Shown here piece by piece: positions 23,254 through 41,351 of a DNA stretch of 64,000 bases (within the stretch, counting starts at the first letter, position 1; the number at the start of each line of letters is the position of its first letter). Origin of the DNA: Alkaliphilus metalliredigens QYMF. GTDB lineage: Bacteria; Bacillota; Clostridia; Peptostreptococcales; Natronincolaceae. The stretch is from the NCBI RefSeq assembly GCF_000016985.1, contig NC_009633.1:1054001-1118000 (forward strand). The letters are read 5' to 3'. The position numbers and the translations under genes were made by a program. The notes below the pieces were generated by a model that was not told the DNA's origin, made no database searches, and saw nothing but the letters and a program-made list of their open reading frames with translations.

Positions 23254-25461
23254 ATGTTCAAAAAATACCATTGCATAAAACAACACGATATAGCCGATTG
23301 TGGTGCAGCTTGTTTAGCCACCATTTCAAAAAACTACGGTCTGAAAATACCTATCACAAAAATTCGTGAAGTTGCTGGCACTGATAAGCAGGGAACCAAT
23401 GCCTATGGAGTCATCAAGGCAGCAGAACAACTAGGTTTTAGTGCCAAAGGCGTAAAAGGTGACCAAGAAGCGTTTTTTAGCGAGTTTCCACTGCCTGCTA
23501 TTGCCCATGTTGTAATGGAGGGTTCACTATTACACTATGTAGTGATACATAAAATCACAAAAAAGGAAGTGATCATTGCCGACCCCGGAAAGGGCATAGT
23601 CAAATACACTCCAGAAGAATTCTTTAAGCTATGGACAGGAGTGTTAATCATATTAATCCCCAGTCCTCAATTTCAAAAAGGTAATGAAACAAAGGGCCTA
23701 TTCAAAAGATTCTTTGGCATATTAAAGCCACAGAAAAAATTAGTCATCAATATTTTTTTTGCATCCATTGTATACACTATACTAGGTATAATCGGTGCTT
23801 TTTACTTTAAAATTTTGATGGATGACATACTAAGATACAACCTAACCAAGACCCTACATATCATAACGGCAGGAATCATTATATTGAACATTTTCAAAAT
23901 ACTCTTGAATGCCTTTAGAAGTCACCTACTTTTATACCTAAGTCAGAGGATGGATATCCCCTTAATACTGGGCTACTATCAACACGTGATAGATTTACCC
24001 ATGAGCTTCTTTGGAACAAGAAAAGTAGGAGAAATCATCTCAAGATTCATGGATGCCTCAAAAATAAGAGAAGCCATATCAGGGGCCACACTAACCATCA
24101 TGATAGACACCCTAATGGCAATAGCTGGTGGCATCATACTCTATACCCAGAATGCTTCTCTATTTGGCATAGCAGTGATCATGCTTTTTTTATACGGGAT
24201 ACTAGTAGCTGTATTTAATAAACCTATAAAAGAAATCAGCCAAAAAGAAATGGAAAACAACGCACAGCTTACATCATATCTAGTAGAAAGCCTCAATGGC
24301 ATAGAAACCGTAAAAGCATTCAATGCCGAGAGACAAGCTAAAACAGAGACAGAGACAAAGTTTGTAAAGCTCTTGAGAAACATACTAAAAGCAGGTACCA
24401 TCTACAATTTACAAGGCTCACTAAGCAATGCAGTGGGCACCATTGGTGGCATAATCATACTATGGGCAGGCGCATACAAAGTGATACAGGGTGAAATAAC
24501 TGTAGGACAACTACTGGTATTTAACTCACTCTTAGCTTACTTTATAGATCCAGTAAAAAATCTCATTAACCTCCAGCCCATGATGCAGACAGCCATAGTA
24601 GCCTCGGACCGACTGGGAGAAATACTAGATTTAAAACTAGAAAAAAGTCCAGAAGAAAACAAGAAAGTGAGCCCCAAGACACTAAAAGGTGAAATCCAAT
24701 TCAAAAACGTAGACTTTAGATATGGCACAAGAGAGCTTGTACTAAAAAACATCGGCCTAACCATAAAACCAGGAGAAAAAATAGCACTAGTAGGTGAAAG
24801 CGGCTCAGGAAAAACAACCCTAGCAAAACTACTAATGCATTACTATACAAACGAAAAAGGCGACATCCTAATAAATCAATATAATATAAAAGACATAAAC
24901 ATAGAAAAACTAAGAGAAAGAATAGCATACATATCCCAGGACATATTCATGTTCAGCGGAACAATTAAAGAAAACCTATCATTAGGAAACAAAGACATCA
25001 CCCTAGAAGAAATGATAGAAGCAGCAAAACAATCAAGCGCCCATGATTTCATCAATCAGCTTCCCTTAAGATACGACACCCTGCTAGAAGAAAATGCAAC
25101 CAACCTATCAGGAGGACAAAAACAAAGACTAGCCATAGCAAGGGCACTGCTAAAAAATCCAGACATACTGATCATGGATGAAGCAACCAGTAACCTAGAC
25201 TCCATAACAGAAAAAGCCATAGAAAAAACCATAGCAGGATTCAACCAAGAAATAACAACCATCATCATTGCCCATAGACTCAGTACCATCATGCAGTGCG
25301 ATACCATCTACGTCCTAGACAAAGGCGAAATAATAGAAACAGGAAGCCATGAAGTCCTCATGGACAAAAGAGGCAAATACTTCAACCTATGGAAAGAACA
25401 ACTACCAGAATACCAAGAAACCAACCAAACCAACCAACAGTTAGGAGAAAGTACAGTATGA
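23254..25461 (+). CDS. C39-peptidase ABC transporter (double-glycine leader processing and export)
   Basis: 735 residues. Residues 1-135 are a C39 peptidase: Q10, catalytic C16 in A-D-C-G-A-A-C, H94 in L-L-H-Y-V-V-I-H and D110 in I-A-D-P-G. Then six membrane helices (about 150-440) and an ATPase with Walker A G-E-S-G-S-G-K-T-T, signature L-S-G-G-Q and Walker B I-L-I-M-D-E-A-T. It cuts leaders after Gly-Gly and exports the core peptide. It overlaps the HlyD gene by ATGA. Codons ATA, CTA and AGA are much commoner than in flanking core genes, suggesting transfer. It is the only intact exporter here and probably serves all the peptides. Confidence 0.95.
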   Translation: MFKKYHCIKQHDIADCGAACLATISKNYGLKIPITKIREVAGTDKQGTNAYGVIKAAEQLGFSAKGVKGDQEAFFSEFPLPAIAHVVMEGSLLHYVVIHKITKKEVIIADPGKGIVKYTPEEFFKLWTGVLIILIPSPQFQKGNETKGLFKRFFGILKPQKKLVINIFFASIVYTILGIIGAFYFKILMDDILRYNLTKTLHIITAGIIILNIFKILLNAFRSHLLLYLSQRMDIPLILGYYQHVIDLPMSFFGTRKVGEIISRFMDASKIREAISGATLTIMIDTLMAIAGGIILYTQNASLFGIAVIMLFLYGILVAVFNKPIKEISQKEMENNAQLTSYLVESLNGIETVKAFNAERQAKTETETKFVKLLRNILKAGTIYNLQGSLSNAVGTIGGIIILWAGAYKVIQGEITVGQLLVFNSLLAYFIDPVKNLINLQPMMQTAIVASDRLGEILDLKLEKSPEENKKVSPKTLKGEIQFKNVDFRYGTRELVLKNIGLTIKPGEKIALVGESGSGKTTLAKLLMHYYTNEKGDILINQYNIKDINIEKLRERIAYISQDIFMFSGTIKENLSLGNKDITLEEMIEAAKQSSAHDFINQLPLRYDTLLEENATNLSGGQKQRLAIARALLKNPDILIMDEATSNLDSITEKAIEKTIAGFNQEITTIIIAHRLSTIMQCDTIYVLDKGEIIETGSHEVLMDKRGKYFNLWKEQLPEYQETNQTNQQLGESTV

Positions 25462-26933
25462 AAGGAATCGTACAAAACCTAAACGACATAACAGATAGCA
25501 GAGAGCTACTAGAAAGCCGCCCCCATCCCTTTACAGTCATATTCATATACCTACTAATCGGGCTGTTGGCAATCGCATTTATCTGGACCTACATAGGGGA
25601 AATAGACATCGTTGTAAAAGCCAATGGCGTAGTAAGACCAAATCAAAGAATAAGCACCATTAACAATATCGTCCCAGGTAAAGTCAAAGAATTATACATA
25701 GAAAATGGGAAGACAGTAAAAAAAGACGACATACTCTACACAATAGATCATACCGAACTAAAAAATAAACAAGCTTTTATAGAAGAAGAATTATCCAGGA
25801 AAAAAACAGAGCTAAAAAATCAAAACATCTTTAAACAAAGCATCATAGAAAACAAAAACAGCTTTAATCAGCAAGAAAAAGATCAAGAAGTTCATTACTA
25901 CAAATATATAAAATATCAAGCAGAGCAAGGGCAGACAAAAGAAAATGTAAACCTAATCATCAGTAAAATAAATACTACACAAACTATACTACAAAACACA
26001 CAAACACTTTTGACTGCCATAGAGAATAATGAAAATAAATTTGAAGATACAGAAAACGAATACTACATCAAATTTCTTGATTACAGCCTTAATCTAAAAG
26101 ACCTGCAAAAAGAGGTAGACAAGAAAAAGATAGACCTTGAAATACAAGAAAAACTACACCAATCAGGTGCTGTATCCCAAATGGACTATAAGAATGTGAA
26201 AGACATGCTAGAAAAAATGCAATTAGAAAAAAAACGATTTGAAAACAGCACCCGATTAAGCCTTAAAACAAGCATGGAAGAAAACCAAAGACTGTTAAAT
26301 CAGCTAGAAATACAATTACAACAAATTGCACCAGGAATAGTTGAACAAATAGAAAACCATCCAGACATAGCAGCAGCAAACCATAGAACAGAAAATATAA
26401 TAGCAATAAATGAGACTATAAAATATCTAGAGGCAGAAATCAACCAACTACAAAATAATCTTAAGGGCATAAAGCTAGACATTGAAAACTCTATTAGTAA
26501 AGCCCCAATAGATGGACATATAAACATCATCACAGACATCAACCAAGGGGATAATATACAAGCAGGAACACCAATAGCAACCATTATTCCATATGATGAC
26601 AGCAATTATACAGTACGAATATATGCATCCAACGAAGACATCGCAAATATAAACATAGGAGATAAAGTGAAATATAACTTCATGGCATTACCCTATAAAG
26701 AATACGGCGAATTGACAGGCAAAATTACAAGAATAGCAACAGATACAAAAACAACTCAAGAAGGTAACACAAGCTACTACCTAGTAGAGTCAGATATAGA
26801 AACAAGAGCCTTAATTAGCTACAAAGGTGAAGAAGCTGATATAAAAGTAGGGATGGTATGTGAAGCCAGGGTAGTAACCAAAACAAAGAAAATACTTCAT
26901 TACTTGCTTGAGAAGATAGATTTAAGATTGTAA
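25458..26933 (+). CDS. HlyD-family export adaptor
   Basis: 491 residues: a short cytoplasmic N-terminus, one membrane helix (about 35-55, F-I-Y-L-L-I-G-L-L-A-I-A), a barrel part V-K-A-N-G-V-V-R-P, a long coiled coil (about 110-330) and a second barrel with K-A-P-I-D-G-H-I-N. Such adaptors pair with C39 transporters to carry peptides across the Gram-positive envelope. ATG 25458 overlaps the transporter stop and follows AGGAGAAAG. Its last ~90 codons are duplicated at 31100-31471. Confidence 0.92.
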   Translation: MKGIVQNLNDITDSRELLESRPHPFTVIFIYLLIGLLAIAFIWTYIGEIDIVVKANGVVRPNQRISTINNIVPGKVKELYIENGKTVKKDDILYTIDHTELKNKQAFIEEELSRKKTELKNQNIFKQSIIENKNSFNQQEKDQEVHYYKYIKYQAEQGQTKENVNLIISKINTTQTILQNTQTLLTAIENNENKFEDTENEYYIKFLDYSLNLKDLQKEVDKKKIDLEIQEKLHQSGAVSQMDYKNVKDMLEKMQLEKKRFENSTRLSLKTSMEENQRLLNQLEIQLQQIAPGIVEQIENHPDIAAANHRTENIIAINETIKYLEAEINQLQNNLKGIKLDIENSISKAPIDGHINIITDINQGDNIQAGTPIATIIPYDDSNYTVRIYASNEDIANINIGDKVKYNFMALPYKEYGELTGKITRIATDTKTTQEGNTSYYLVESDIETRALISYKGEEADIKVGMVCEARVVTKTKKILHYLLEKIDLRL

Positions 26934-27228: not shown

Positions 27229-27507
27229 ATGTTTAAAGAAATGACTCAAAAAGAAATGATGATGCTTGATGGGGGAAAAAGAAGAAGTTCTACAAGACAT
27301 GAAAGAAGTGGTGGGTATAGTAGAGTTACTGATGAAGCTAGACAATCTCATATCAACGTTGTCGTAGGTGCTGCAGTTTCTGCAGTTTTAGGTGGTGCTG
27401 GTGGTGCTGCATTTGGTGGATCTGTTGGGAGCGGAGTATTAGGGGGTGGAGTAAGTGGAAGTATAGGGTCTGGTATAGCAGATACAATAGTTAATAAGCT
27501 AAATTAA
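27229..27507 (+). CDS. Double-glycine leader peptide, glycine-zipper bacteriocin-like
   Basis: 92 residues. The leader M-F-K-E-M-T-Q-K-E-M-M-M-L-D-G-G ends at residue 16 and fits C39 processing. The core starts K-R-R-S-S-T-R, basic, then a hydrophobic Gly/Ala/Val stretch (about 45-85) full of G-x-x-x-G spacings, typical of membrane-active class II bacteriocins. No Cys, so no disulfide or lanthionine. It lies directly after the exporter pair behind module A and before a small two-TM gene that could be immunity. Antimicrobial activity is inferred. Confidence 0.78.
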   Translation: MFKEMTQKEMMMLDGGKRRSSTRHERSGGYSRVTDEARQSHINVVVGAAVSAVLGGAGGAAFGGSVGSGVLGGGVSGSIGSGIADTIVNKLN

Positions 27508-28767: not shown

Positions 28768-29592
28768 ATGAATAAGTTTAGCAGTTCGGTAAAAAATGGT
28801 TTTTTCCTATACTTTCTGATTGTTTTAAGTTCAAATTTATTCTACTTTTCAACTCGAAATATAGGGCTTAGTAGATTAATACGTGTTCTTATAATTCAAT
28901 ACTTTTTCTACCTACTAATACCAATTACCTGTTTAATGTTAAATAAAAAAATTATTAAAAAAGATTTGAGGCTCAATAAAATAAACTGGAAGCAATTTAG
29001 ATTAATTTTTTTGATTTCGATATTAGCAGTACCTATATCGACTTATTTAAACAATGTGGTGTTGGTTGTACTAAGTCTATTTGGGGACTATACAAGAATT
29101 CAACGGTTAATAACTGACGTCACATCTTTTTATACTCTAATAGCATCAATATTTATCTTTGTCATAACACCAGCAATCTGTGAAGAAACAATGTTTCGCG
29201 GATTTCTTATGAATGAGTTTAAATCAATAGGTGTTAGAAAATCAATTATTTTAACCGCAGTTCTATTCAGTATATTTCATCTTGATATAGAGTTTTTACT
29301 GGGGGCTACTTTTATAGGGATTATATTTGGTTATCTAGTACATATAACAAATTCCCTATATGCTGGAATAATTGCACATGGCATCTTTAACTTGACAGGA
29401 TCATTATTAAAATTTCTTCTACTTAATGGAAGTTCTGACATAGCTGGTGATATTGTTATTTGGAAGGAGATCATTCCTGTTATTTTATTAGGTATAATGC
29501 CATCCTGTGTATTTGTTGCGCTTAGTTGGCTACTTATAAAAAAATTGATAGAAACAGTCAACAATACTCCACAAAATTTTGAGGTTGAGTGA
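28768..29592 (+). CDS. CPBP-family (CAAX-type) intramembrane protease
   Basis: 274 residues with about eight membrane helices. CPBP motifs are intact: C-E-E-T-M-F-R-G-F (EExxxR) near residue 147, S-I-F-H-L-D (catalytic His) near 170 and H-G-I-F-N near 206. CPBP proteins in bacteriocin loci act in self-immunity or peptide maturation. The start follows AAGGAGGG. It is one of four in the island, each near a secreted-peptide gene or a mobile-element scar. The substrate is unknown. Confidence 0.88.
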   Translation: MNKFSSSVKNGFFLYFLIVLSSNLFYFSTRNIGLSRLIRVLIIQYFFYLLIPITCLMLNKKIIKKDLRLNKINWKQFRLIFLISILAVPISTYLNNVVLVVLSLFGDYTRIQRLITDVTSFYTLIASIFIFVITPAICEETMFRGFLMNEFKSIGVRKSIILTAVLFSIFHLDIEFLLGATFIGIIFGYLVHITNSLYAGIIAHGIFNLTGSLLKFLLLNGSSDIAGDIVIWKEIIPVILLGIMPSCVFVALSWLLIKKLIETVNNTPQNFEVE

Positions 29593-29680: not shown

Positions 29681-29824
29681 ATGCTAAAAAAATACACTTG
29701 CATAAAACAACATGATACAACCGATTGTGGTGCAGCATGTTTAGCCACCATGAAACCAAAGGGGACGGCAGACTGCGTAAAAACTCAAATCTCACTTAAA
29801 CATACCACTATATATTGCGTCTAA
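29681..29824 (+). pseudogene. Truncated start of a C39-ABC exporter gene
   Basis: Starts M-L-K-K-Y-T-C-I-K-Q-H-D-T-T-D-C-G-A-A-C-L-A-T, matching the first 23 residues of the exporter at 23254, then runs into unrelated sequence and stops. The preceding 60 bases also match the exporter leader. The break point is an AAAGGGGACGG block, the left end of the REP-like repeat. Confidence 0.88.
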
Positions 29825-30047: not shown

Positions 30048-30917
30048 ATGAAAACATATATCAAAACCACCTGGCAGATTACCAAATACATCTTAATCCA
30101 CTTTGTAATAATAATGCTTTATAACTTTGGCGCCGGCGCCTTTTATGGAGTGAAAATGGCAATGAATGACCAGCTTGATGAGATTGAATCAGGCATTGAA
30201 GCCTTTTTAGCACCTCACACATCCATATCCATAATCATTGCTGCCATAGGCGCATTTCTGATTTACCGTTATATAATGAAAAGAAAAAACCTCAACCTAT
30301 ATGAAGAATGTCGGTTCAAAAAGCTTAGCAGAGGACAAACCCTAGCATCCCTTTCAACAGGCGTATCCATATTATCTTTAAGCCTGCTGATTCTTGGAAT
30401 GACTAGCTTTATGTTTCAAGAATCACTAGATACCCATATTAATAATACACATTCACTGATCAGCGTGCATCCATTATTGCTTATCATAAGTGTAGGCATT
30501 GCCGCACCTTTTATCGAAGAAATACTATTTCGAGGTTTGGTATTTAGAGAATTGGAGCAAAAAAGCACAATCGCTATAACCATTATCATTCAAGCCATCA
30601 TTTTTGGTGCATATCACTTAAATCTAGCACACGGCATCATGACAACAATAATGGGTATATTTTTAGGACTATCTCTGTATTGGACAGGCTCCATCTGGGC
30701 TCCGATTTTGATACATTTAACTAACAACTTACTGAGCGTAGTCTTAGACCTGCTGGGATATGGTATCTTTATTGAAACATACCCTCTGGCAGATAAAGCT
30801 ATTTGCGGAACAGCAGTTCTTATAGTTCTCCCCCTAAGCATCCTGTACTTATATCGTAGCCGTATCACATGGGAACCGAAGAAAGTAGATGAGAAAACAG
30901 AGATCGAAAAAATATAA
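30048..30917 (+). CDS. CPBP-family (CAAX-type) intramembrane protease
   Basis: 289 residues, about eight helices, with F-I-E-E-I-L-F-R-G-L (EExxxR), A-Y-H-L-N-L (His) and I-H-L-T-N-N. Active-site residues are intact. The C-terminus is charged (E-P-K-K-V-D-E-K-T-E). Start after AAGGAGAAT. Its codon style (ATA, CTA, AAAC-rich) resembles the exporter pair more than core genes. It stands between two gene remnants, so its ancestral neighbours have been lost. Likely immunity or peptide maturation. Confidence 0.88.
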   Translation: MKTYIKTTWQITKYILIHFVIIMLYNFGAGAFYGVKMAMNDQLDEIESGIEAFLAPHTSISIIIAAIGAFLIYRYIMKRKNLNLYEECRFKKLSRGQTLASLSTGVSILSLSLLILGMTSFMFQESLDTHINNTHSLISVHPLLLIISVGIAAPFIEEILFRGLVFRELEQKSTIAITIIIQAIIFGAYHLNLAHGIMTTIMGIFLGLSLYWTGSIWAPILIHLTNNLLSVVLDLLGYGIFIETYPLADKAICGTAVLIVLPLSILYLYRSRITWEPKKVDEKTEIEKI

Positions 30918-31063: not shown

Positions 31064-31471
31064 GGAAATACAATTACAACAAATTGCACCAGGAATAGTT
31101 GAATAAATCTAATAGCAACCATCATTCCATATGATGACAGCAATTATACAGTACGAATATATCCATCCAACGAAGACATCGCAAATATAAACATAGGAGA
31201 TAAAGTGAAATATAACTTCCTAGCATTACCCTATAAAGAATACGGCGAATTGACAGGCAAAATCGCAAGAATAGCAACGGATACAAAAACAACTCAAGAA
31301 GGTAACTCAAGCTATTACCTAGTAGAGTCAGATATAGAAACAAGAGCCTTAGTTAGTTATAAAGGCGAAGAGGCTGATATAAAAGTAGGGATGATATGTG
31401 AAGCCAGGATAGTAACCAAAACAAAGAAAATACTGCATTACTTGCTTGAGAAGATAGATTTAAGATTGTAA
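31064..31471 (+). pseudogene. Truncated HlyD copy (C-terminal part)
   Basis: 31064-31105 matches the HlyD gene near 26300-26345 and ends in a stop; after a deletion, 31108-31471 matches its last ~120 codons almost base for base (Y-K-E-Y-G-E-L-T-G-K-I ... L-L-E-K-I-D-L-R-L). An ATG at 31205 could give an 88-residue fragment, but it lacks a good ribosome site, the membrane anchor and the coiled coil. Confidence 0.9.
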
Positions 31472-31724: not shown

Positions 31725-31967
31725 ATGAAAAACAAAAAAGGACTTGAAGTAGGAGTAGAAATGACGGATGAGGAGCTTATGAATTTAGTAGGAGGCTTTG
31801 AAAGCGCAACTAGTATAGACGTCCCATATTTATTTCTACCCATTACTCGACCATTTCCAACAAAAGGTGGTATTATTGTAACTCCATTATATGGGATACA
31901 ACCAACGCCAAAGTACGGAATACAGCCATTATATGGAATACAACCCATTGACGTTAAATCAATTTAG
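31725..31967 (+). CDS. RiPP precursor with three X-Tyr-Gly repeats (candidate spliceotide)
   Basis: 80 residues. A leader with acidic M-T-D-E-E-L-M-N-L-V-G-G ends at Gly24, fitting C39 cleavage. The core ends in three copies of Y-G-I-Q-P: P-L-Y-G-I-Q-P, P-K-Y-G-I-Q-P and P-L-Y-G-I-Q-P, the Tyr at 56, 64 and 70. X-Y-G is the motif used by radical SAM spliceases, which excise tyramine to leave a beta-amino-acid. A radical SAM/SPASM gene follows 351 bases later after a terminator. No Cys in the core rules out thioether (sactipeptide-type) products. Modification is inferred. Confidence 0.75.
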   Translation: MKNKKGLEVGVEMTDEELMNLVGGFESATSIDVPYLFLPITRPFPTKGGIIVTPLYGIQPTPKYGIQPLYGIQPIDVKSI

Positions 31968-32045
31968 CCAACAAATGCTAGAATAGTAGGATAGTTGAAT
32001 AAATTTTTTTCAGGCGGTGTAAAAAATTTGTAGATAAGCAAAAAT

Positions 32046-32104
32046 AAATACTCCTTTTGGCAAAGAACAAACAAATAAATCTATGTCAGAAAGGAGTATT
32101 TTTT
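32046..32104 (+). terminator. Terminator between precursor and radical SAM gene
   Basis: AAATACTCCTTT pairs with AAAGGAGTATTT, followed by TTTT, with a 32-base loop. It would let precursor be made in excess over enzyme. The rest of 31968-32318 has no gene. Confidence 0.72.
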
Positions 32105-32318
32105 AGAAAAAATTACTTCAGGCAACTAAAGGTTAAGTGTGTAAGCTTGTTGATGTATATGTATATAGGAATTAATCTATCGCTATTATAGTTAAAGATT
32201 TACGTAAGAAGAAATTCGTACAAAAGAAAACTTAAGATAGAAAACCTAAGCTATAAAAAAGTGTATTAAAATATCAAATAAAAAATTAAAATAACAAGGA
32301 TATAAGGAGAAATTAGCT

Positions 32319-33860
32319 ATGGAGTTGAAACCAATAACAGCAGTATGGGAAATAACGATGGGGTGTAATATGAGATGCAAGCATTGTGGTTCTAGCTGTG
32401 AACATCCATTAGAAGGAGAATTAAATACAGATGAAGCTTTAAAGCTGTGTGATGAAATGGGAGAACTAGGATTTCAATGGATAACCCTATCTGGCGGTGA
32501 GCCTACCACAAGAAAAGACTGGCATTTAATAGCAAAACGACTCAATGATAATGGAATTATACCTAACATGATAACAAATGGTTGGACCATGGATGAGGAT
32601 ATTGCAGAGAAGGCTGCAAAAGCAGGTGTAAATACTATTGCATTTAGTGTGGATGGATTAAAAGAAACCCATGACGATATAAGAAGACCTGAGTCCTTTG
32701 ATCGGATTGTGAATGCAATAGATATTGTTCGTAACAAAGGGTTAAATTGCTCAATAATTACAACCATAAACAAAACAAATATCAATGAATTATGGGGAAT
32801 GAAAAAAATATTTGATAGCAAAATAATAAATGGATGGCAGCTGCAAATAGCACTTCCTATGGGTAATATGGCAACAAACAATGACCTGATAGCCCAACCT
32901 TATCATGTTGATGCAATAATAGATTTTGCATATGAAGCTTCTTGTGATAGTGATATAGAGATCCAATTGGCAGATTGTATAGGGTACTTTAATAAAAAAG
33001 AAATTGAGGTAAGAACAAAATATCGCAATTTAGATTCTTATCAATGGAAAGGGTGCGGAGCAGGAAAATATAGTATGGGTATTCTTCATAATGGAGACAT
33101 ATTGGGGTGCACCTCCATAAGAGACAGAAGTTTTATTGAAGGAAATATAAGAAAAACACCTTTAAAACAGATTTGGAATGACCCTGATAAATTCAGCTGG
33201 AATCGAAAAATGAAAAAAGAGCAATTAACAGGACTTTGCAAAAAATGTGAGTTTGGAGATCTGTGTTTTGGAGGCTGTGCTAATACACGACTAATCTTTG
33301 GTGAAAGTATTTATTCCGAAAATACCTACTGTTCATATAATAACGCTATAAAAAAGGCTGATGCACAGTTATCAAAAATAGAGGATATAGAAGAATTAAT
33401 TAACAAGGCAAAAAAGTTTAGTGATAATAAAAGCTTTCAATTAGCACAATTAATGCTAGAAAAAATCATTCATACAGACCAAGAAAATGAGGAGATTTTA
33501 AATTTGTATGGATACGTTTCCTTTATGCTACATAATTACTCTGAGGCAAAAATTATTAATGAAAAATTACTTAAGCAAAGACCGAATGATCCCTATGTCA
33601 ATAAAGGATATGGACTATCTATTGCAAAACTTGGGGAAGTTGAAGAAGGTATAGTGTACTTGAAGAAAGCCATAAAGCTGTCAGATGAAAATTTTATGGA
33701 CCCCTACTACGATCTTGCCGTGATATATATGGAGAACAACAAAAGAGAAGAAGCTATCTCAACTTTAGAAGAAGGCATGAGTAGATCCAATAAATTTACT
33801 AAAGATTGTAAGGTTTTATATGAAGAACTTGTACATTGTACCTTAATTCCAGGGGAGTAA
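32319..33860 (+). CDS. Radical SAM/SPASM peptide-modifying enzyme with TPR tail
   Basis: 513 residues. Radical SAM core (about 8-230) with C16-x3-C20-x2-C23 (G-C-N-M-R-C-K-H-C) and S-G-G-E-P. SPASM region (about 240-345) with G-C-G-A-G, C-T-S, C-K-K-C and C-F-G-G-C ligands for extra iron-sulfur clusters. The C-terminal ~150 residues are TPR-like repeats, perhaps binding the leader in place of a separate recognition protein. The upstream precursor with XYG repeats suggests splicease activity; epimerisation or cross-linking of Tyr are alternatives. Start after AAGGAGAAA. No separate PlpY-like partner gene is seen. Confidence 0.85.
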   Translation: MELKPITAVWEITMGCNMRCKHCGSSCEHPLEGELNTDEALKLCDEMGELGFQWITLSGGEPTTRKDWHLIAKRLNDNGIIPNMITNGWTMDEDIAEKAAKAGVNTIAFSVDGLKETHDDIRRPESFDRIVNAIDIVRNKGLNCSIITTINKTNINELWGMKKIFDSKIINGWQLQIALPMGNMATNNDLIAQPYHVDAIIDFAYEASCDSDIEIQLADCIGYFNKKEIEVRTKYRNLDSYQWKGCGAGKYSMGILHNGDILGCTSIRDRSFIEGNIRKTPLKQIWNDPDKFSWNRKMKKEQLTGLCKKCEFGDLCFGGCANTRLIFGESIYSENTYCSYNNAIKKADAQLSKIEDIEELINKAKKFSDNKSFQLAQLMLEKIIHTDQENEEILNLYGYVSFMLHNYSEAKIINEKLLKQRPNDPYVNKGYGLSIAKLGEVEEGIVYLKKAIKLSDENFMDPYYDLAVIYMENNKREEAISTLEEGMSRSNKFTKDCKVLYEELVHCTLIPGE

Positions 33861-33958: not shown

Positions 33959-34324
33959 GTGATTATACAGGATAAGAAAGAAGAAACGTCAAATAAAATC
34001 CCAAGTGACTATGAAATCAAAAAGACTATATTTTTTGGGCTGCTTTTAACCAACGAAAAATATAACCTGACCATAAGGGAAACTCAAGTAATATTTGAAA
34101 AATATTATAGCAGTATTAATAACAACAAAATAGCCAGAAAATTAAATGTTTCACCACAAACGGTTAAAACCCATATCAAAAACATCTATAATAAACTAGG
34201 TGTTAATAGTTTAGAAGAATGCAAGGACTTGTTGAATGAAATATTAGGGAAAAGCCCAAAAAACTATGATAAGTATTTAAAGAGCTTTTTAGAGAAAGAG
34301 AAAAAAATTTCAAAGGAGGGGTAG
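33959..34324 (+). CDS. LuxR/GerE-type HTH mini-regulator
   Basis: 121 residues. A LuxR-type helix-turn-helix at about 40-95: T-I-R-E-T-Q-V-I-F, N-N-K-I-A-R-K-L-N-V-S-P-Q-T-V-K-T-H-I-K-N-I-Y-N. There is no receiver or ligand domain, so it may act constitutively or with a partner. The GTG start follows AGGGGTGAG. It is directly upstream of module C and may activate peptide promoters. Its last ~65 codons, together with module C, are duplicated at 43653-44204. Confidence 0.82.
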   Translation: MIIQDKKEETSNKIPSDYEIKKTIFFGLLLTNEKYNLTIRETQVIFEKYYSSINNNKIARKLNVSPQTVKTHIKNIYNKLGVNSLEECKDLLNEILGKSPKNYDKYLKSFLEKEKKISKEG

Positions 34325-34430: not shown

Positions 34431-34661
34431 CTTCCTGTTATACATATTATTTCAAGCTGTTCCCATAGCTAAGTAAATAAGAAAACCTTTTGATGGGAGA
34501 AAAGGTTGTGTAGGACGGGGATTATAATATATAGAAACAAAAATACGGATTTACATAGTAAATATTTTGTTCAGAAGTTTACCGGGGAATCGATGGATGA
34601 AGTGTTGGTCTTTACTAAAGAAAGTGAATCTGAAAATTAAATTTAAAGGAGGAATTTGAAG
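34431..34661 (+). promoter_or_regulatory. Conserved peptide-gene upstream module, copy C
   Basis: Intact AACCTTTT-N8-AAAAGGTT and TATAAT. The repeat loop is GATGGGAG where copies A, B and D have GATGAGAG, and the upstream TCTCA is TCCCA, so the potential pairing between them is kept. It ends AAAGGAGG before the peptide gene. Confidence 0.7.
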
Positions 34662-34859
34662 ATGCTAAAAGAGATGACACAGGAAGAATTGATGATCGTT
34701 GATGGTGGATGGAAAGATGCCATTTTTGAACGTGTGACTGGGGTAACCACAGATGAAGCAAAACGAGTCGTTGTAGATACCGTAATAGAAAACTTAAAAA
34801 ATCCAAATGCAGTTAAACCTGTTAGGAGTGAACATAACTTTAGATATGGCGGCTGGTAA
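34662..34859 (+). CDS. Double-glycine leader peptide
   Basis: 65 residues. Leader M-L-K-E-M-T-Q-E-E-L-M-I-V-D-G-G, cleavage expected after residue 16. The 49-residue core W-K-D-A-I-F-E-R-V-T-G is amphipathic and charged, ending F-R-Y-G-G-W; it lacks the glycine zipper of the first peptide and has no Cys. ATG 34662 is chosen over TTG 34656 on ribosome-site spacing. Flanked by module C and a terminator-like hairpin, then a CPBP gene. Bacteriocin or signal peptide; undecided. Confidence 0.75.
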   Translation: MLKEMTQEELMIVDGGWKDAIFERVTGVTTDEAKRVVVDTVIENLKNPNAVKPVRSEHNFRYGGW

Positions 34860-34938: not shown

Positions 34939-35766
34939 TTGAGGAATTTCATGAAATCTCTAGGATTGATTACACTTTTTATAGCAGTACCAAGGGTTTT
35001 ACTTCATATTCTAATTAACGAGGCTGTTAAAACATTGGTACATAAAAATGAGTATATGGATATTAATGTTGCAAAAGATACAATTATTCAAGTAATGGAT
35101 ATGCTGACACCTATACTTATTATAATTAGTACAATACTATCATTTTTCGTGTACTATTTAGTGTGCAAAGTACAAAAAGAAGATATGTTTGACATATGCA
35201 ATTTTTCCAAAATATCGGTTACAAAGACTATTGCTTTAGTTATTGTAGGAATTACTATGAACTTAGTACTTGGACTCGTTGCCTCATTCGTTTTTCGCAT
35301 AGGCATTTTTGGAAAAGCACAAATGGAATACAGTATCATTTTAAAAGAACGAATGAACGGAGATTTTTTAGTAGACTTAATTACTGCAGGAATTAATGCT
35401 CCATTTATTGAAGAAATGCTATTTAGAGGATTAATTTTTAAAGAACTTAAAAAAAACATGTCCGTTGTATGTGCGGTAATAATACAAGCGATTTTATTCA
35501 GTATATACCATAGAGAGTTGATTCAAAGTATGGGTGCTTTTTTTGCTGGGGTTTTATTATGCTTAGTATATATATGGTTTAAGTCAATTTGGGCTCCCGT
35601 TATTATTCATATGACACATAATTTATTTGTTATAATAGTGTCAAATATAGCTGGTGATAGAGTGATGAGTAGTTATATTCCTTATATTTCATCAATAATA
35701 TTAATTTTAACAATTGTATATATCTATAAAAATAGAATAGTTGAAGATAACATCCCTATGTGTTAG
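34939..35766 (+). CDS. CPBP-family (CAAX-type) intramembrane protease
   Basis: 275 residues, about eight helices, motifs F-I-E-E-M-L-F-R-G-L, S-I-Y-H-R-E-L and I-H-M-T-H-N, all intact. TTG start after AAAGGAGAAA; ATG 34951 is an alternative. It follows the peptide gene by 80 bases with only the hairpin between, so the two are probably co-transcribed, a typical bacteriocin-immunity arrangement. Confidence 0.88.
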   Translation: MRNFMKSLGLITLFIAVPRVLLHILINEAVKTLVHKNEYMDINVAKDTIIQVMDMLTPILIIISTILSFFVYYLVCKVQKEDMFDICNFSKISVTKTIALVIVGITMNLVLGLVASFVFRIGIFGKAQMEYSIILKERMNGDFLVDLITAGINAPFIEEMLFRGLIFKELKKNMSVVCAVIIQAILFSIYHRELIQSMGAFFAGVLLCLVYIWFKSIWAPVIIHMTHNLFVIIVSNIAGDRVMSSYIPYISSIILILTIVYIYKNRIVEDNIPMC

Positions 35767-36316: not shown

Positions 36317-37060
36317 TTAAAACAATGATTCTCGATGTTCTAATCTATAGCTCTTACCTGTCATATTAAATAGCTCACATCTGTAAGTGATTCTATCTAA
36401 CACTGCCGTGGTTAAAGCGGGGTCCCCTAATAACTCGGTCCAATCTTCAAGCCCTTTGTTGGAGGTAATAATTAACGATGTTTGTTCATGAAGGGCTGAT
36501 ATTAATTGGAAAAACAAGTTCGCTTCTTCTCTTGATATGGGGAGGTAACCTAGCTCATCGATGATCAGAAGACTAGAAGATAAAACATTGTTGATTTTCC
36601 CTTTGCTTTTTCTTGATATCTCCTGTGTTTTTAAACAGTGCATCAGATTGTCCATGGTGGTGAAGCTAACCTTGTAGCCCATCTCTACAGCCTTGTACCC
36701 TAATGCAATACACAAGTGGCTTTTACCTACCCCTGGAGGGCCTAAAAGTATTAGATTATACATTCTATCTATCCAGTCCATCTCAATAAGACTATTGATT
36801 TGTCTTTGGGTAATCGATCTTTGAAAGGTTAGATCGAACTCTTCTATTGTCTTAAGTACCGGAAAGCCTGCAGCCTTAACTCTGCGTTCCTGGGCCTTTT
36901 TCTCTCTGAGATCGACTTCGTTTTCTAATATTGACAGTAAAAGATTCTGATATGAAATGTTGTTTATGTCAGCATTTTCAACGATGGAATCTGCATTGGT
37001 ATTTAAGTAGTTCAATTTGAGTTTTTTAGCGTGATCCTTTATTGATTCTAATTTTTCCAT
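36317..37060 (-). CDS. istB: IS21 helper ATPase IstB
   Basis: 247 residues of the DnaA/DnaC-like AAA family: Walker [10 protein letters not shown], Walker [10 protein letters not shown], then T-S-N-K-G-L-E-D-W. IstB remodels target DNA and stimulates IstA. It overlaps istA by 13 bases; the start follows GAAGGAGGAT. Full length. Confidence 0.95.
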
Positions 37061-38622
37061 TTTCTTTTATCCTCCTTCAGGGCACTCATGTATTCTCTAA
37101 TATCTCGTACTTGAGGCTTTAAATCCTGATATTTTGAAGGAGTAGTTATGTCAGCTTTAAAGTACTTCTTATTTAGTTGTCTGTTTTCTTCAAGTTTTAA
37201 GTACTGTATGGCATCCTTCAAGAGCCCTGCGCTAAACAATTTCCTTTCAATACAGTAGCTTAATGCCCTTTGAACAATTGATTTGTCTTGGTTTTTTACT
37301 GTATTCATTATTAGGGCAAATTGATCTTTAAAGTGTCTTGGCTTCTCTATTTTTAATACATCAACAAATTCATTAGCCTTTTCAGTATGGTCTAAGCTTT
37401 TTAACACTTTGTTGTAGATTTCATGACTTGTACAGTGTTTACTCTCATTCCTATCATAGTGCTCTATTTTCACTAATTTTCCTTTATCCTGACTGATTTT
37501 ATGTTCAATAATTAACTGTTCTGTATCTTGGTTCTTAATTTCCATGGTATCTTTCTTAATAATTAATTTAACCTCTTTCCCTGGAGAATAGGTTCCCGTA
37601 GGGACTTGGTATCTATTTTGCTTGTAAAAAACTGTATTGTTTTTTCTAACGAGATAGGTTAAACTATTTGTATTAGTTGTGTTTACAAATAGAGTGGGTA
37701 TTGGCTTTAAGTGTTCCTTTTCCAGGGCAAACACTTCTGCCGGTACCTTCTTTGTTGTTTCATGGACTTTTTTATTACCTCTTCTTTCTAACCATTTCAG
37801 CGAATCATCATTAAATGAGTCAATATCTACAAATGTTCTATTCTTTGCAAAATTATACTTGGCATATTTCACTACGGCTTCAATTTTCCCTTTACTCTGT
37901 GGGTCATAACCCCTGCAAAGGTACACTTTAAACTTAAGGGAATTAATATAGTTTTGAAATCCTTCTGTGTATATGATATCTCCATGATTTTCTGATACCA
38001 CTAGGACTCTGTCCTGGTCATAAACAACCTCCTTAGGCATTCCTCCAAAATATTCAAAGGCTTTATTATGGGCCTCAATGAATGTCTGGGTAGTAAAGGG
38101 CTTGTCTATCCAATAGATGTATTTATGTCTGGAATGGGATAAAACCATACCAAAGCAATATACTTTGATTCTTGTTTTGTCAGGTTTATCTAGCCATATT
38201 TGGCCCAGGTCAACCTGTGCTTGATATCCCATAGGAAGCTCATCCACCTCCTCAAATTGCCTTGCTGAAACTACTTTAGGGAGCTTATGTTCTTCCCTTA
38301 AGTGATTGACATATAGTCGTAAAGTTCTATCCTTAAAGTCCAGCACATGATATTTTTCCTCTAGCCAATCATATATTTGAGCACTTGATAAATCCCTATG
38401 TTCTCTAATCCATGCTAAGACTTCGTCCTTATATTTGTCCACCTTCCTTTCTCTAGATTCAGTTCTTTGTCTTAAGCTTGCAAATTCATCTGGTGTCATA
38501 TCCCAATATTTATGTACTGTTTTATAGTCGATCTCCAGCCTCCTTGCTACCTGTGATTTATTCAGTCCTTTGGACTTGTATCCTTGGATTTCAGCAAACA
38601 TATTCCACTCCTTCAATTTCAT
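37048..38622 (-). CDS. istA: IS21 transposase IstA
   Basis: Up to 524 residues: N-terminal HTH ([11 protein letters not shown]), then an rve/DDE integrase core with [16 protein letters not shown] and D-P-Q-S-K-G-K-I-E, giving the three acidic residues, and a C-terminal beta-barrel part. ATG 38601 has a better-placed ribosome site (AAGGAG) than 38622. It appears intact, so the element may be active. Confidence 0.94.
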
Positions 38623-39053: not shown

Positions 39054-40792
39054 GGGATCAGTGAAAAAGTCTCTTATAAAGAGTTAATAATATGATACTA
39101 GCTTTTGCTTGAAAACGTATAAAAACTAGTGAAAGTATTGAATTCACTAGTTTTGATCAGATGAAAACCCCCATATATGGTATAATATAAGTACGACCAA
39201 ATACAACCAATAGGGGGTAATATGCTTCGACTAAAGCCAAAGCAAATATCTTTTCACTCATCATTATATAATAAAATACCAGAAAATCATATACTAAAAA
39301 GAATAGATTCAGTAGTAGATTTTAGCTTTATCAATGGTTTACTAGAGAATAGCTATTGCAAAAAATTTGGACGACCTGCGAAAGAACCGGAATTGATGTG
39401 CAAGTTACTTTTTTTGCAGCATTTATATAATCTATCAGATGAAAAGGTCAAAGAAGAAGCGAGTTTAAACCTAGCATATATGTACTTTATTGGTATTAAT
39501 CCAGAAGATTCTCTTCCGGATAAAAGTCTTTTATCTAAATTCAGAACACAACGACTTGGACAGTCAACGCTAGATGAAATCACCACAGAAATCGTAAGAC
39601 AATGTGTAGTAAAAGGAATCGTTGAGGGAAAGAGTGTAAGTATTGATGCTACCCATATAGAGGCGAATACAATAAAGAAAACTCCAGAACGATTAATGAA
39701 GCATTTAGGAAGAAAAATCATCAAGACATATGGAGAAGAAACATCCCAAGATCTAGAAGGTATACCTGAGGTGCCAGACTATAAAGAAATTACAGATCAT
39801 AAAGAGGCAAAAGCTGCAATGAAAGAATACCTAGAAATTGTAATTGATCAAGCAGAGAGAAATATATCTACTAACGAGCAAAAAACAGCAGAAGTAATTA
39901 AACAGGCTAAAGATATATTAAATGATCCCAAGTTTATCAATCAAAAAGGGATACGCTCATTAATAGATGTAGATGCAAGAGTTGGACGTAAAAGTAAAAC
40001 GCAAGATTTTTTTGTTTAAAACGGAATTTATTATGACAACAGATGAACGAATTATCACCTCGATAAATACAGCCGATGGAGCGTATCCAGATGGTAACCA
40101 TGTAAAAGAAATGCTGGACCAAACAAAGAAAACCGGCATAGCTGTTGAAGAAGTTTATGGAGATAAAGCATATTTTAGAAAATCAATATTAGATGATATA
40201 AAAGAAATGAAAGCAAAAGCTTTCATACCAGTTAGTACATCCGCTTACAGAATTGATGAAAGTGAGTATACATATAACAAAGACTCAGATGAATGGCAGT
40301 GTAGTCAAGGAAATACAACCATAAATAAAAAGCATTATAAATATAAAAGTAAAGCAAGAGAAAGAGCAGGTTATAAATACTATTTTGAAATGAGTCAATG
40401 CAAAGCATGTCCTAAACATGATGAATGTGCTAAAAAAAGCGCCAGAAAAATACTTATAGTAGGTTTAAATGCTTCAGAATTTTATGAAATATCGCAGTAT
40501 CAGAAAACAGATGAGTTCAAGGAACAATATAAAAAGAGAGCTTCTATTGAAGGTAAAAATGCCGAACTCAAAAGATTTCATGGGCTACATCGAGCAAGAG
40601 GATATGGTTTAATAAGTGTGTCAAAACAATCAAAGCTAGCTGCAATAGCGGTAAATATTAAGAGGATAGCAGCAATAATCTCCTCTTTTTTATCTAATTT
40701 TAAGGGTATTTTTGAAATGACAGACTATTTTTCGGATTTGTCGAAATTTCTTGCGATTTAACGAAAAAAAGGACCAGTTTTTCACTGGTCCC
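39054..40792 (+). mobile_element. IS1182-like insertion sequence
   Basis: The ends GGGATCAGTGAAAAA (39054) and the inverse of GGGACCAGTGAAAAA (ending 40792) are inverted repeats. The flanks are GGACGGTTC and GGATGGTTC, one mismatch, consistent with a target duplication inside the REP-like repeat. One transposase gene, split by a frameshift. Confidence 0.85.
39222..40761 (+). pseudogene. IS1182-family transposase with a frameshift
   Basis: Frame 1 (39222-40019): DUF772-type N-terminus with F-G-R-P-A-K-E-P-E-L-M and the first catalytic Asp in V-S-I-D-A-T-H-I-E. Frame 2 (usable from about 40010 to 40761): second Asp in E-V-Y-G-D-K-A-Y, zinc-like C-x2-C-x4-C and catalytic Glu in R-A-S-I-E-G-K-N-A-E. 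The frames join at a run of seven T (40007-40013). Most relatives have one frame, so this copy is probably dead unless slippage on the T-run restores it. Confidence 0.85.
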
Positions 40793-40900: not shown

Positions 40901-41114
40901 AAAGCTTGTAGCTATCTCAAAGCAAAGTAAGCGATAAAACCTTTTGATGAGAGAAAAGGTTGTGTAGGGTAGGGATTATAATAGATAAACTAAAAGAGCA
41001 GATTTACATAGTTCAATATTTTGTTCAGAAGTTTTCCGCGGAATGGATGAATGAGGTGTTGGGATTATTAAAGAGAAGTGAATCTGTAAACAAAATTAAA
41101 GGAGGAAATTGAAT
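40901..41114 (+). promoter_or_regulatory. Conserved peptide-gene upstream module, copy D
   Basis: Very close to copy A: AAGCTTGTAGCTATCTC, intact AACCTTTT-N8-AAAAGGTT, TATAAT, TTTTCCGCGGAATGGATGAA and AAAGGAGG. The open frame of copy A is interrupted here by stops. It starts directly after the REP-like repeat. Confidence 0.7.
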
Positions 41115-41351
41115 ATGTTTAAAGAAATGACTCAAGAAGATCTTTCTGTTATTAATGGTGGAGGGAAATTAGAAGTAACCACTACTATGGGTGTTTTTGC
41201 TGCAGTGCTAAGTGGAGGAAATGGGTATGTGGTAGCTGGAACAGTATATGCGGCTGATAAATATTATGATCATGTAACGAGTCCAGACTATGCAGATAGC
41301 TGGAAAAAGTCGTCAAATGCTGATTTAATAAATGCTCACCCAAATAATTAA
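41115..41351 (+). CDS. Double-glycine leader peptide
   Basis: 78 residues. Leader M-F-K-E-M-T-Q-E-D-L-S-V-I-N-G-G, cleaved after residue 16. The core G-K-L-E-V-T-T-T-M has a hydrophobic Gly/Ala/Val middle (about 25-48, S-G-G-N-G-Y-V-V-A-G-T-V) and a polar tail ending N-A-H-P-N-N. ATG 41115 rather than TTG 41109. Followed by a hairpin and a 63-residue membrane protein, the same order as at 27229. Bacteriocin-like; activity inferred. Confidence 0.77.
   Translation: MFKEMTQEDLSVINGGGKLEVTTTMGVFAAVLSGGNGYVVAGTVYAADKYYDHVTSPDYADSWKKSSNADLINAHPNN

Follow-up and report, generated by a model that had tools for sequence, protein, structure and literature searches.

The locus described here raises the question of whether a short peptide with three X-Tyr-Gly sites and the radical SAM/SPASM enzyme encoded next to it form a spliceotide system, i.e., one in which the tyramine part of a tyrosine is cut out of the peptide chain. 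Both genes lie in the window, by which we mean the whole stretch of 64,000 nucleotides of Alkaliphilus metalliredigens QYMF that was analyzed (contig NC_009633.1, positions 1,054,001 to 1,118,000). An earlier note had proposed a PlpX-type splicease acting on a three-site precursor, followed by cleavage by a C39 exporter. As judged from sequence comparisons, the two genes form a real RiPP locus that is conserved and resembles those of spliceotides, its enzyme coming from a family that is sister to that of the known enzymes; its novelty is provisional. A probability of about 0.7 is given to the reading that the locus makes a spliceotide-like peptide, with tyramine excision, C39 export and protease-blocking sites. 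Because an exported peptide with three sites is encoded beside an enzyme from a sister family of tyramine cutters, the product would probably be a peptide containing beta-amino acids and able to block proteases.

Both claimed open reading frames, of 80 and 513 residues, were recovered at 31725-31967 and 32319-33860 with a gap of 351 bases between them, and an AGGAG-like ribosome-binding site stands upstream of each. The double-glycine leader, the three Y-G-I-Q-P repeats (Tyr 56, 64 and 70) and the Cys-free core described previously were all confirmed. Indeed, the leader ends in MTDEELMNLVGG, with the double glycine at Gly23-Gly24, and leaves a core of 56 residues in which each YGIQP repeat is preceded by Leu, Lys and Leu, respectively; the presence of X-Tyr-Gly sites beside the enzyme, by which a spliceotide locus may be recognized, is thereby seen three times in the window precursor. 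When the 56 core residues were shuffled 200,000 times, at least three YG were obtained in 0.14% of the shuffles and at least three YGI in none, and one further frame with three YG was present among the 478 stop-to-stop frames (40-150 aa) of the window. Since Cys is absent from the entire 80-residue precursor, core included, thioether chemistry of the sactipeptide or ranthipeptide type was put aside. Searches of Pfam and NCBIfam gave no family match to a Nif11 or nitrile-hydratase-like leader for the window precursor, whose leader is short and of the double-glycine kind, while bacteriocin profiles gave weak matches only, under their cut-offs. No second precursor match was detected in the window's own genome at E up to 1. 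The spacer between the two genes contains a hairpin (Table 1); a terminator scan of this spacer found none, and the spacer as a whole folded no better than shuffled versions (z -1.0).

Table 1. Coordinates of the features discussed in the text; positions refer to the window, or to the named locus where a locus handle precedes them.
Feature	Position	Strand	Remarks
Intact C39 peptidase-containing ABC exporter, likely the leader-cutting exporter	23254..25461	+	TIGR01193 689 bits, cut-off 524
HlyD-like accessory protein	25389..26933	+	TIGR01843 162.6 bits, under cut-off 208.65
Decayed second C39 exporter gene, 5' end	29681..29824	+	Aligns well with the sibling's exporter over about 150 bases and diverges beyond
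C-terminal remnant of a second HlyD-like gene, just before the precursor	31205..31471	+	Nearly identical to the end of the 25389-26933 protein
Precursor peptide gene, 80 aa	31725..31967	+	ORF; sibling in G010
Leader, residues 1-24, Gly-Gly end as predicted C39 cleavage site	31725..31796	+	Aligned leaders of 24 short precursors
Site 1, Leu55-Tyr56-Gly57	31887..31895	+	
Site 2, Lys63-Tyr64-Gly65	31911..31919	+	
Site 3, Leu69-Tyr70-Gly71	31929..31937	+	
Hairpin in precursor-enzyme spacer, possible terminator or attenuator	32046..32101	+	Similar in sibling
Predicted splicease of 513 aa (radical SAM/SPASM, TPR tail at the C-terminus)	32319..33860	+	
CxxxCxxC motif, C16, C20, C23	32364..32387	+	
SPASM cysteines C246 to C338	33054..33332	+	Seven: 246, 264, 307, 310, 316, 320, 338
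Helical tail with TPR repeats, residues ~342-505	33342..33833	+	Pfam TPR matches; helices in model
LuxR-type HTH protein, possible regulator	33959..34324	+	Pfam GerE 50.5 bits, cut-off 23.5; also downstream in sibling
Chagasin-family protein with site tail	L010:3025-3972		
Chagasin-family protein with site tail	L029:4862-5806		
Chagasin-family protein with site tail	L031:4809-5873		
Chagasin-family protein with site tail	L033:5241-5822		
Chagasin-family protein with site tail	L035:5083-5910		
Chagasin-family protein with site tail	L039:3923-4774		

The enzyme has the Pfam domains Radical_SAM, SPASM and TPR, the TPR matches covering approximately residues 370-490. The radical SAM motif and SPASM cysteines that characterize TIGR04103 are present in it, and the CxxxCxxC motif together with the seven SPASM cysteines is invariant across 41 aligned sequences (alignment A3). 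Motif, cysteines and TPR tail were thus as previously described, except for the length of the tail, put at ~150 residues and in fact of about 175 beyond the last SPASM cysteine. The AlphaFold model reached a mean pLDDT of 93, and the solved structures nearest to it according to Foldseek were PqqE, SuiB and SkfB; as these are general SPASM enzymes, no single chemistry is picked out by the fold. In the window's own genome, the next enzyme match scored 97 bits, vs 1192 for the enzyme itself.

Among the NCBIfam profiles, TIGR04103 ranked highest with 224.5 bits, followed by TIGR03913 (201.8), heme b synthase (169.3) and TIGR04133 (161.7), giving TIGR04103 a lead of 55 bits over the best family other than TIGR04103/TIGR03913. 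We take TIGR04103 to be the PlpX-type splicease family, and IPR026482 to be its equivalent. The curated cut-offs are 725 bits for TIGR04103 and 591.75 for TIGR03913. Since the score of 224.5 bits is far under 725, a value exceeded by the Nostoc reference enzyme (853), the window enzyme is assigned to a sister family of TIGR04103 and not to TIGR04103 itself; hence, the proposal of a PlpX-type enzyme does not hold in the strict sense. PlpX is assigned to IPR026482 in an excerpt of PMC11002830.

In the final tree of 61 proteins, which leaves aside 17 rows of an earlier set and two rows from the window's own genome, the window clade (29 rows) formed a single clade at 99/84, whereas TIGR04103/TIGR03913 (16 rows) formed one clade at 100/100. 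These two clades and two Myxococcota rows united (47 rows) at 99/97 against TIGR04133 and the heme enzymes, with long branches meeting at the outgroup, as warned by the tool. Earlier trees gave a weak support of 75 with very distant outgroups and then 89/80. Heme-type radical SAM enzymes, considered as close relatives, fell outside (100/99). An alternative holding the window clade with TIGR04133 gave p 0.158 in an AU test on the final tree, and two alternatives gave p 0.398 and 0.264 on the earlier set with fewer outgroups; as none was rejected, the placement beside TIGR04103/TIGR03913 is favored but not firm. Besides, 12 alignment columns, G24, Q174, Q176, Y223 and N335 included, are common to the clade and at least six of the seven reference enzymes and are found in at most two of the 11 outgroup rows. 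On the favored reading, the enzyme would represent a clade that adjoins the curated PlpX-type family without being part of it. A firm grouping with a non-splicease SPASM family, which the earlier note had named as evidence against its proposal, was not seen in the tree, although the AU tests leave the exact placement open.

At E up to 1e-60, the enzyme was found in two of the 20 genomes of the window's family, i.e., its own and G010, which is of another genus; at E up to 1e-45, it was found in five of 398 genomes of a phylum sample, own genome included, when a small number of candidates was scored for each genome. A scan of species genomes, from which the best 80 of 201 relatives were kept (the closer ones being L013-L058), placed members of the enzyme family in Clostridia and other Bacillota, in Bacteroidota and in several proteobacterial groups. 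G010 carries both the enzyme and the precursor and is referred to as the sibling locus. Its gene order is C39, HlyD, precursor and enzyme, with intact exporter copies, and the dN/dS between window and sibling is 0.13 for the enzyme and 0.35 for the precursor. LYG occurs twice in the window, LYG and MYG are found in the sibling, and the sibling also has a fourth site, LKYGIRIP, which the window precursor lacks.

The linkage between clade enzymes and such precursors was then counted in ORFs of 35-400 aa located from 1.5 kb upstream to 3 kb downstream of the enzyme, a site being a Tyr followed by G/A/M/S/N and then by Pro after one or two more residues. The 45 clade loci consisted of 41 from the species-genome scan together with the window, L007, L010 and the plasmid locus L099; they include near copies, e.g., L015/L016 and L047/L099, and the closer group excludes L049 and L051, whose enzymes are truncated, as well as L054, L055 and L057 from Myxococcota. 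In these counts, which describe the family and are no blind or independent test because the motif was defined after several loci had been viewed and the loci are related, ORFs with at least three sites were found on the same strand at 21 of 45 loci and on the opposite strand at none, vs 1 and 0 of 33 controls. With at least two sites, the numbers were 27/45 on the same strand, at least two of which (L043, L053) are large unrelated-looking ORFs, and 2/45 on the opposite one, vs 2/33 for either strand of the controls. With at least one site, they were 40/45 and 21/45, vs 20/33 and 22/33, so that a single site is not informative (40/45 vs 20/33 on the same strand); at five of the 45 loci no site was seen. 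This linkage to multi-site precursors provides the strongest evidence for the predicted spliceotide-like locus. The original proposal is in line with these results in that TIGR04103 is the best curated family and relatives of the enzyme adjoin multi-site XYG precursors. A fused TPR tail is present in most clade members, and several others (L040, L047, L048, L050, L053, L099) are too short for a full one.

The sites are carried by proteins of four kinds. The first kind, to which the window precursor belongs, comprises short double-glycine peptides with tandem sites. In 24 short precursors, one of which (L030) is without the double glycine, 68 motif matches were counted, a few of which look like chance; X was Leu in 36, Lys in 16, Met in 4 and another residue in 12, and the residue after Tyr was Gly in 61, Ala in 4 and Ser in 3. 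Long-leader precursors resembling the NHLP type make up the second kind and had a single AYG or VYG in 7/7 examined, the one at L025 showing a nitrile hydratase match under the cut-off. A UPF0489 gene was recognized by motif at six loci (L032, L034, L036, L037, L043, L052), one of them Pfam-confirmed, and four of these six belong to the seven long-leader single-site loci. UPF0489 is presumably linked to peptide arginases; such enzymes would bring in one more modification. The third kind consists of chagasin-type (Inhibitor I42) proteins that stand beside clade enzymes and have tails of sites. Of eight such carriers analyzed with Pfam, six were over the cut-off, one was below it and one had no match. 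Their sites are mostly KYG, with KYA in L010, KYM in L033 and partly YN in L038, L039 and L041, and reach up to 15 on the protein of L031, the most on one chagasin-family protein. From their sequences, the site-tailed chagasin proteins resemble protease inhibitors that are armed at numerous positions. The fourth kind was seen in Myxococcota (L054, L055) and consists of lipoprotein-like proteins with YM sites. They are encoded upstream of the enzyme (L054:5182-5937, L055:5189-5899) and have many YM sites (LYMGMAG, LYMAPMP, PYMPP). At L057:6001-7326, a radical SAM ORF continues into a lipoprotein-like tail with VYGFP, LYSDP, EYGGP and VYMSP, and this ORF is possibly an enzyme fused to its own substrate.

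A double-glycine leader and a C39 exporter nearby, by which the export class is recognized, are both present in the window. In a scan of 46 clade entries and 34 controls, a C39 exporter began 0-152 bases past the enzyme at L013, L014, L015, L016, L018, L019, L028 and L056, and in none of the 34 controls. The predicted C39 processing is therefore supported by the intact C39 exporter of the window and by synteny in relatives. Passages of PMC10885120 mention C39 exporters for several classes, spliceotides being one of them. Further double-glycine, bacteriocin-like peptides are encoded near the C39 exporter (27229-27507, 34656-34859, 41109-41351), the one at 34656 being the sole one of the three over a curated cut-off (class IIb, 21.8 vs 21.5 bits). 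Genes for proteins like CPBP-type intramembrane proteases were observed at 28768-29592 and 30048-30917, with weak NCBIfam matches, and by eye at 34939-35766; located among peptide genes, they could encode immunity or processing proteins. Transposase-like ORFs were seen by eye only at 36317-38622 and, split over two overlapping frames, at 39222-40761. This region of the window looks rearranged.

For the spliceotide-like reading, we infer the reaction, the leader cleavage, the role of the TPR tail and the inhibitor function as follows. By means of SAM-radical chemistry, the enzyme would act at each X-Tyr-Gly site of the precursor, excising the tyramine part of the Tyr and rejoining the chain at up to three sites. 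As a consequence of this removal and rejoining, Leu55, Lys63 and Leu69 would become alpha-keto-beta-amino residues. The C39 exporter would cut after Gly24 and export the 56-residue core with one to three ketoamide sites, which would serve as reactive protease-inhibitor sites, making the exported peptide probably a protease inhibitor. By calculation, every excision would take away C8H9NO, or 135.068 Da (printed as 135.0757 in PMC10533398), so that the core of 6158.379 Da would weigh 6023.311, 5888.242 or 5753.174 Da after one, two or three of them. Of the sites, the Lys one would be expected to suit trypsin-like proteases and the Leu ones chymotrypsin- or subtilisin-like proteases. According to an excerpt of PMC12710340, the PlpY of the known systems does not have the size needed for a proper RRE fold. 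In tblastn, no PlpY-like match below E 1 was obtained in 54 loci and the window, a weak test with one 71-aa query, namely the ORF after the Nostoc enzyme, which is PlpY-like by place and size only and had no second positive. That the TPR tail replaces PlpY is a guess consistent with the missing PlpY-like ORF in this weak search; the short-tailed members named above likewise gave no PlpY-like match, so that a missing partner alone does not point to the tail. At L036 and L037, a 91-aa ORF begins 5 bases past the enzyme.

The main competing explanation, which we regard as unlikely while giving it real weight, is that a different radical reaction occurs at the same Tyr-Gly sites, such as a Tyr cross-link, oxidation or cleavage at Tyr, or epimerization. 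The position of the enzyme outside the curated PlpX-type family and the lack of firmness in its tree placement would agree with this, as would the relatives with Ala, Met, Asn or Ser after Tyr, unlike the known XYG substrates quoted in the source passages available. However, TIGR04103/TIGR03913 is both the best profile and the tree neighbor, the repeated X-Tyr-Gly-(Ile/Val)-x-Pro pattern fits PlpX-type sites, and thioethers would need the Cys that the window core does not have.

Much less probable is that the precursor is an ordinary double-glycine bacteriocin and that the enzyme acts on something else. The weak class II bacteriocin matches of other double-glycine peptides in the window, the precursor's own matches below cut-off and the 351 bases between the two genes could be explained in this way, but the precursor-enzyme pair is conserved in another genus (G010), the same kind of precursor recurs beside relatives of the enzyme, and no other precursor match was found in the window's own genome at E up to 1. 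Decay of the locus into an inactive one, its own exporter copy being broken, is very improbable: a second C39 gene and a second HlyD gene persist just upstream as remnants, where the sibling's copies are intact, and the sibling's fourth site LKYGIRIP is missing, yet enzyme and precursor are intact, the enzyme dN/dS is 0.13, and 5-8 kb upstream there is a C39 exporter gene that is intact, together with an HlyD-like gene. Tyramine excision followed by C39 export is the preferred reading.

A broader and clearly tentative proposal goes further than this preferred reading. The window clade may form a splicease lineage separate from the PlpX family that is PlpY-free, uses its TPR tail to hold the substrate, accepts XYA, XYM and XYN as well as XYG, and arms varied carriers with ketoamide sites, from short exported multi-site peptides like that of the window to chagasin-fold protease inhibitors carrying as many as 15; together with TIGR04103 and TIGR03913, and perhaps also with TIGR04133, this lineage would make up one large X-Tyr group. 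If the preferred reading is true, the window would provide a backbone-splicing enzyme, perhaps partner-free, that handles closely spaced sites, and the chagasin relatives would connect the splicing chemistry with protease inhibition through a fold already known from inhibitors. One could then test directly what the TPR tail does and how far other residues after Tyr are tolerated. Among the literature matches listed, no account of the clade or of chagasin carriers was recognized, Scott et al. (2022, Chem) and Richter et al. (2024, Chem Sci) being outside this scope.

Compared with known systems, TIGR04133 (radical SAM with lipoprotein) is the next lineage out in the tree, with 161.7 bits for the window enzyme, and differs from the window in its lipoprotein-like partners. 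A tie between TIGR04133 loci and YG sites was rejected, as 5/6 of these loci vs 9/9 heme-enzyme control loci had one, i.e., no enrichment; when YG and Pro were required, the numbers were 3/6 and 3/9. With this control, the link is weakened. At L129:1177-1449, a lipoprotein-like ORF with three KYG sites stands beside a TIGR04133 enzyme, which alone stays suggestive. TIGR03913 (GDL motif peptide maturases with DUF1843 peptides) is closer, being the second-best profile at 201.8 bits, forming one clade with TIGR04103 and adjoining short peptides with YA, YG or YM near the N-terminus; unlike it, the window enzyme misses the cut-off of 591.75, and TIGR03913 has different peptides and no TPR tail that could be seen. 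DUF1843 peptides with YAA, YGA, YGP or YMA near the N-terminus were observed beside TIGR03913-like enzymes (L100:3168-3881, L101:3302-3757), and the YA, YG and YM of such peptides are perhaps sites of the same kind.

Closest to the window are the PlpX/PlpY spliceotides of Pleurocapsa, in which a SPASM radical SAM enzyme likewise adjoins an X-Tyr-Gly precursor with LYG and MYG among its sites. Unlike that system, the window has 224.5 bits vs 725, a fused TPR tail, a short double-glycine leader instead of a Nif11 or NHLP one, and no PlpY-like gene found in a weak test. The Nostoc plasmid enzyme (853 bits, over the TIGR04103 cut-off) adjoins a Nif11-type precursor ending ALYGLPPELF. In the G426 phylum, 25 further TIGR04103-like loci, all under the cut-off, had an upstream ORF with a loose site in 12/25, and the top three enzymes (687, 553 and 539 bits) had PLYGVVS, PLYGVPM and PMYGIPL just upstream. 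Known spliceotide precursors have several sites each, according to an excerpt of PMC10373908, and protease inhibition by spliced products is stated, on the work of others, in passages of PMC10373908 and PMC11117315. The splice tags in Table 1 of PMC10533398, as excerpted, include PIRPLYGLPI and PIRPGYGLPI; in FtsZ, modification was seen with the GYG form in two settings and not with the LYG tag forms shown there at the positions attempted. The same passages describe PlpXY labeling in which the tag was elaborately optimized for one protein, and call for spliceases of higher processivity, among them natural homologues. The L044 precursor of the window clade has DPIRPLYGIEPPVRPLYGIEP, which is strikingly like the PIRPLYGLPI and PIRPGYGLPI splice tags.
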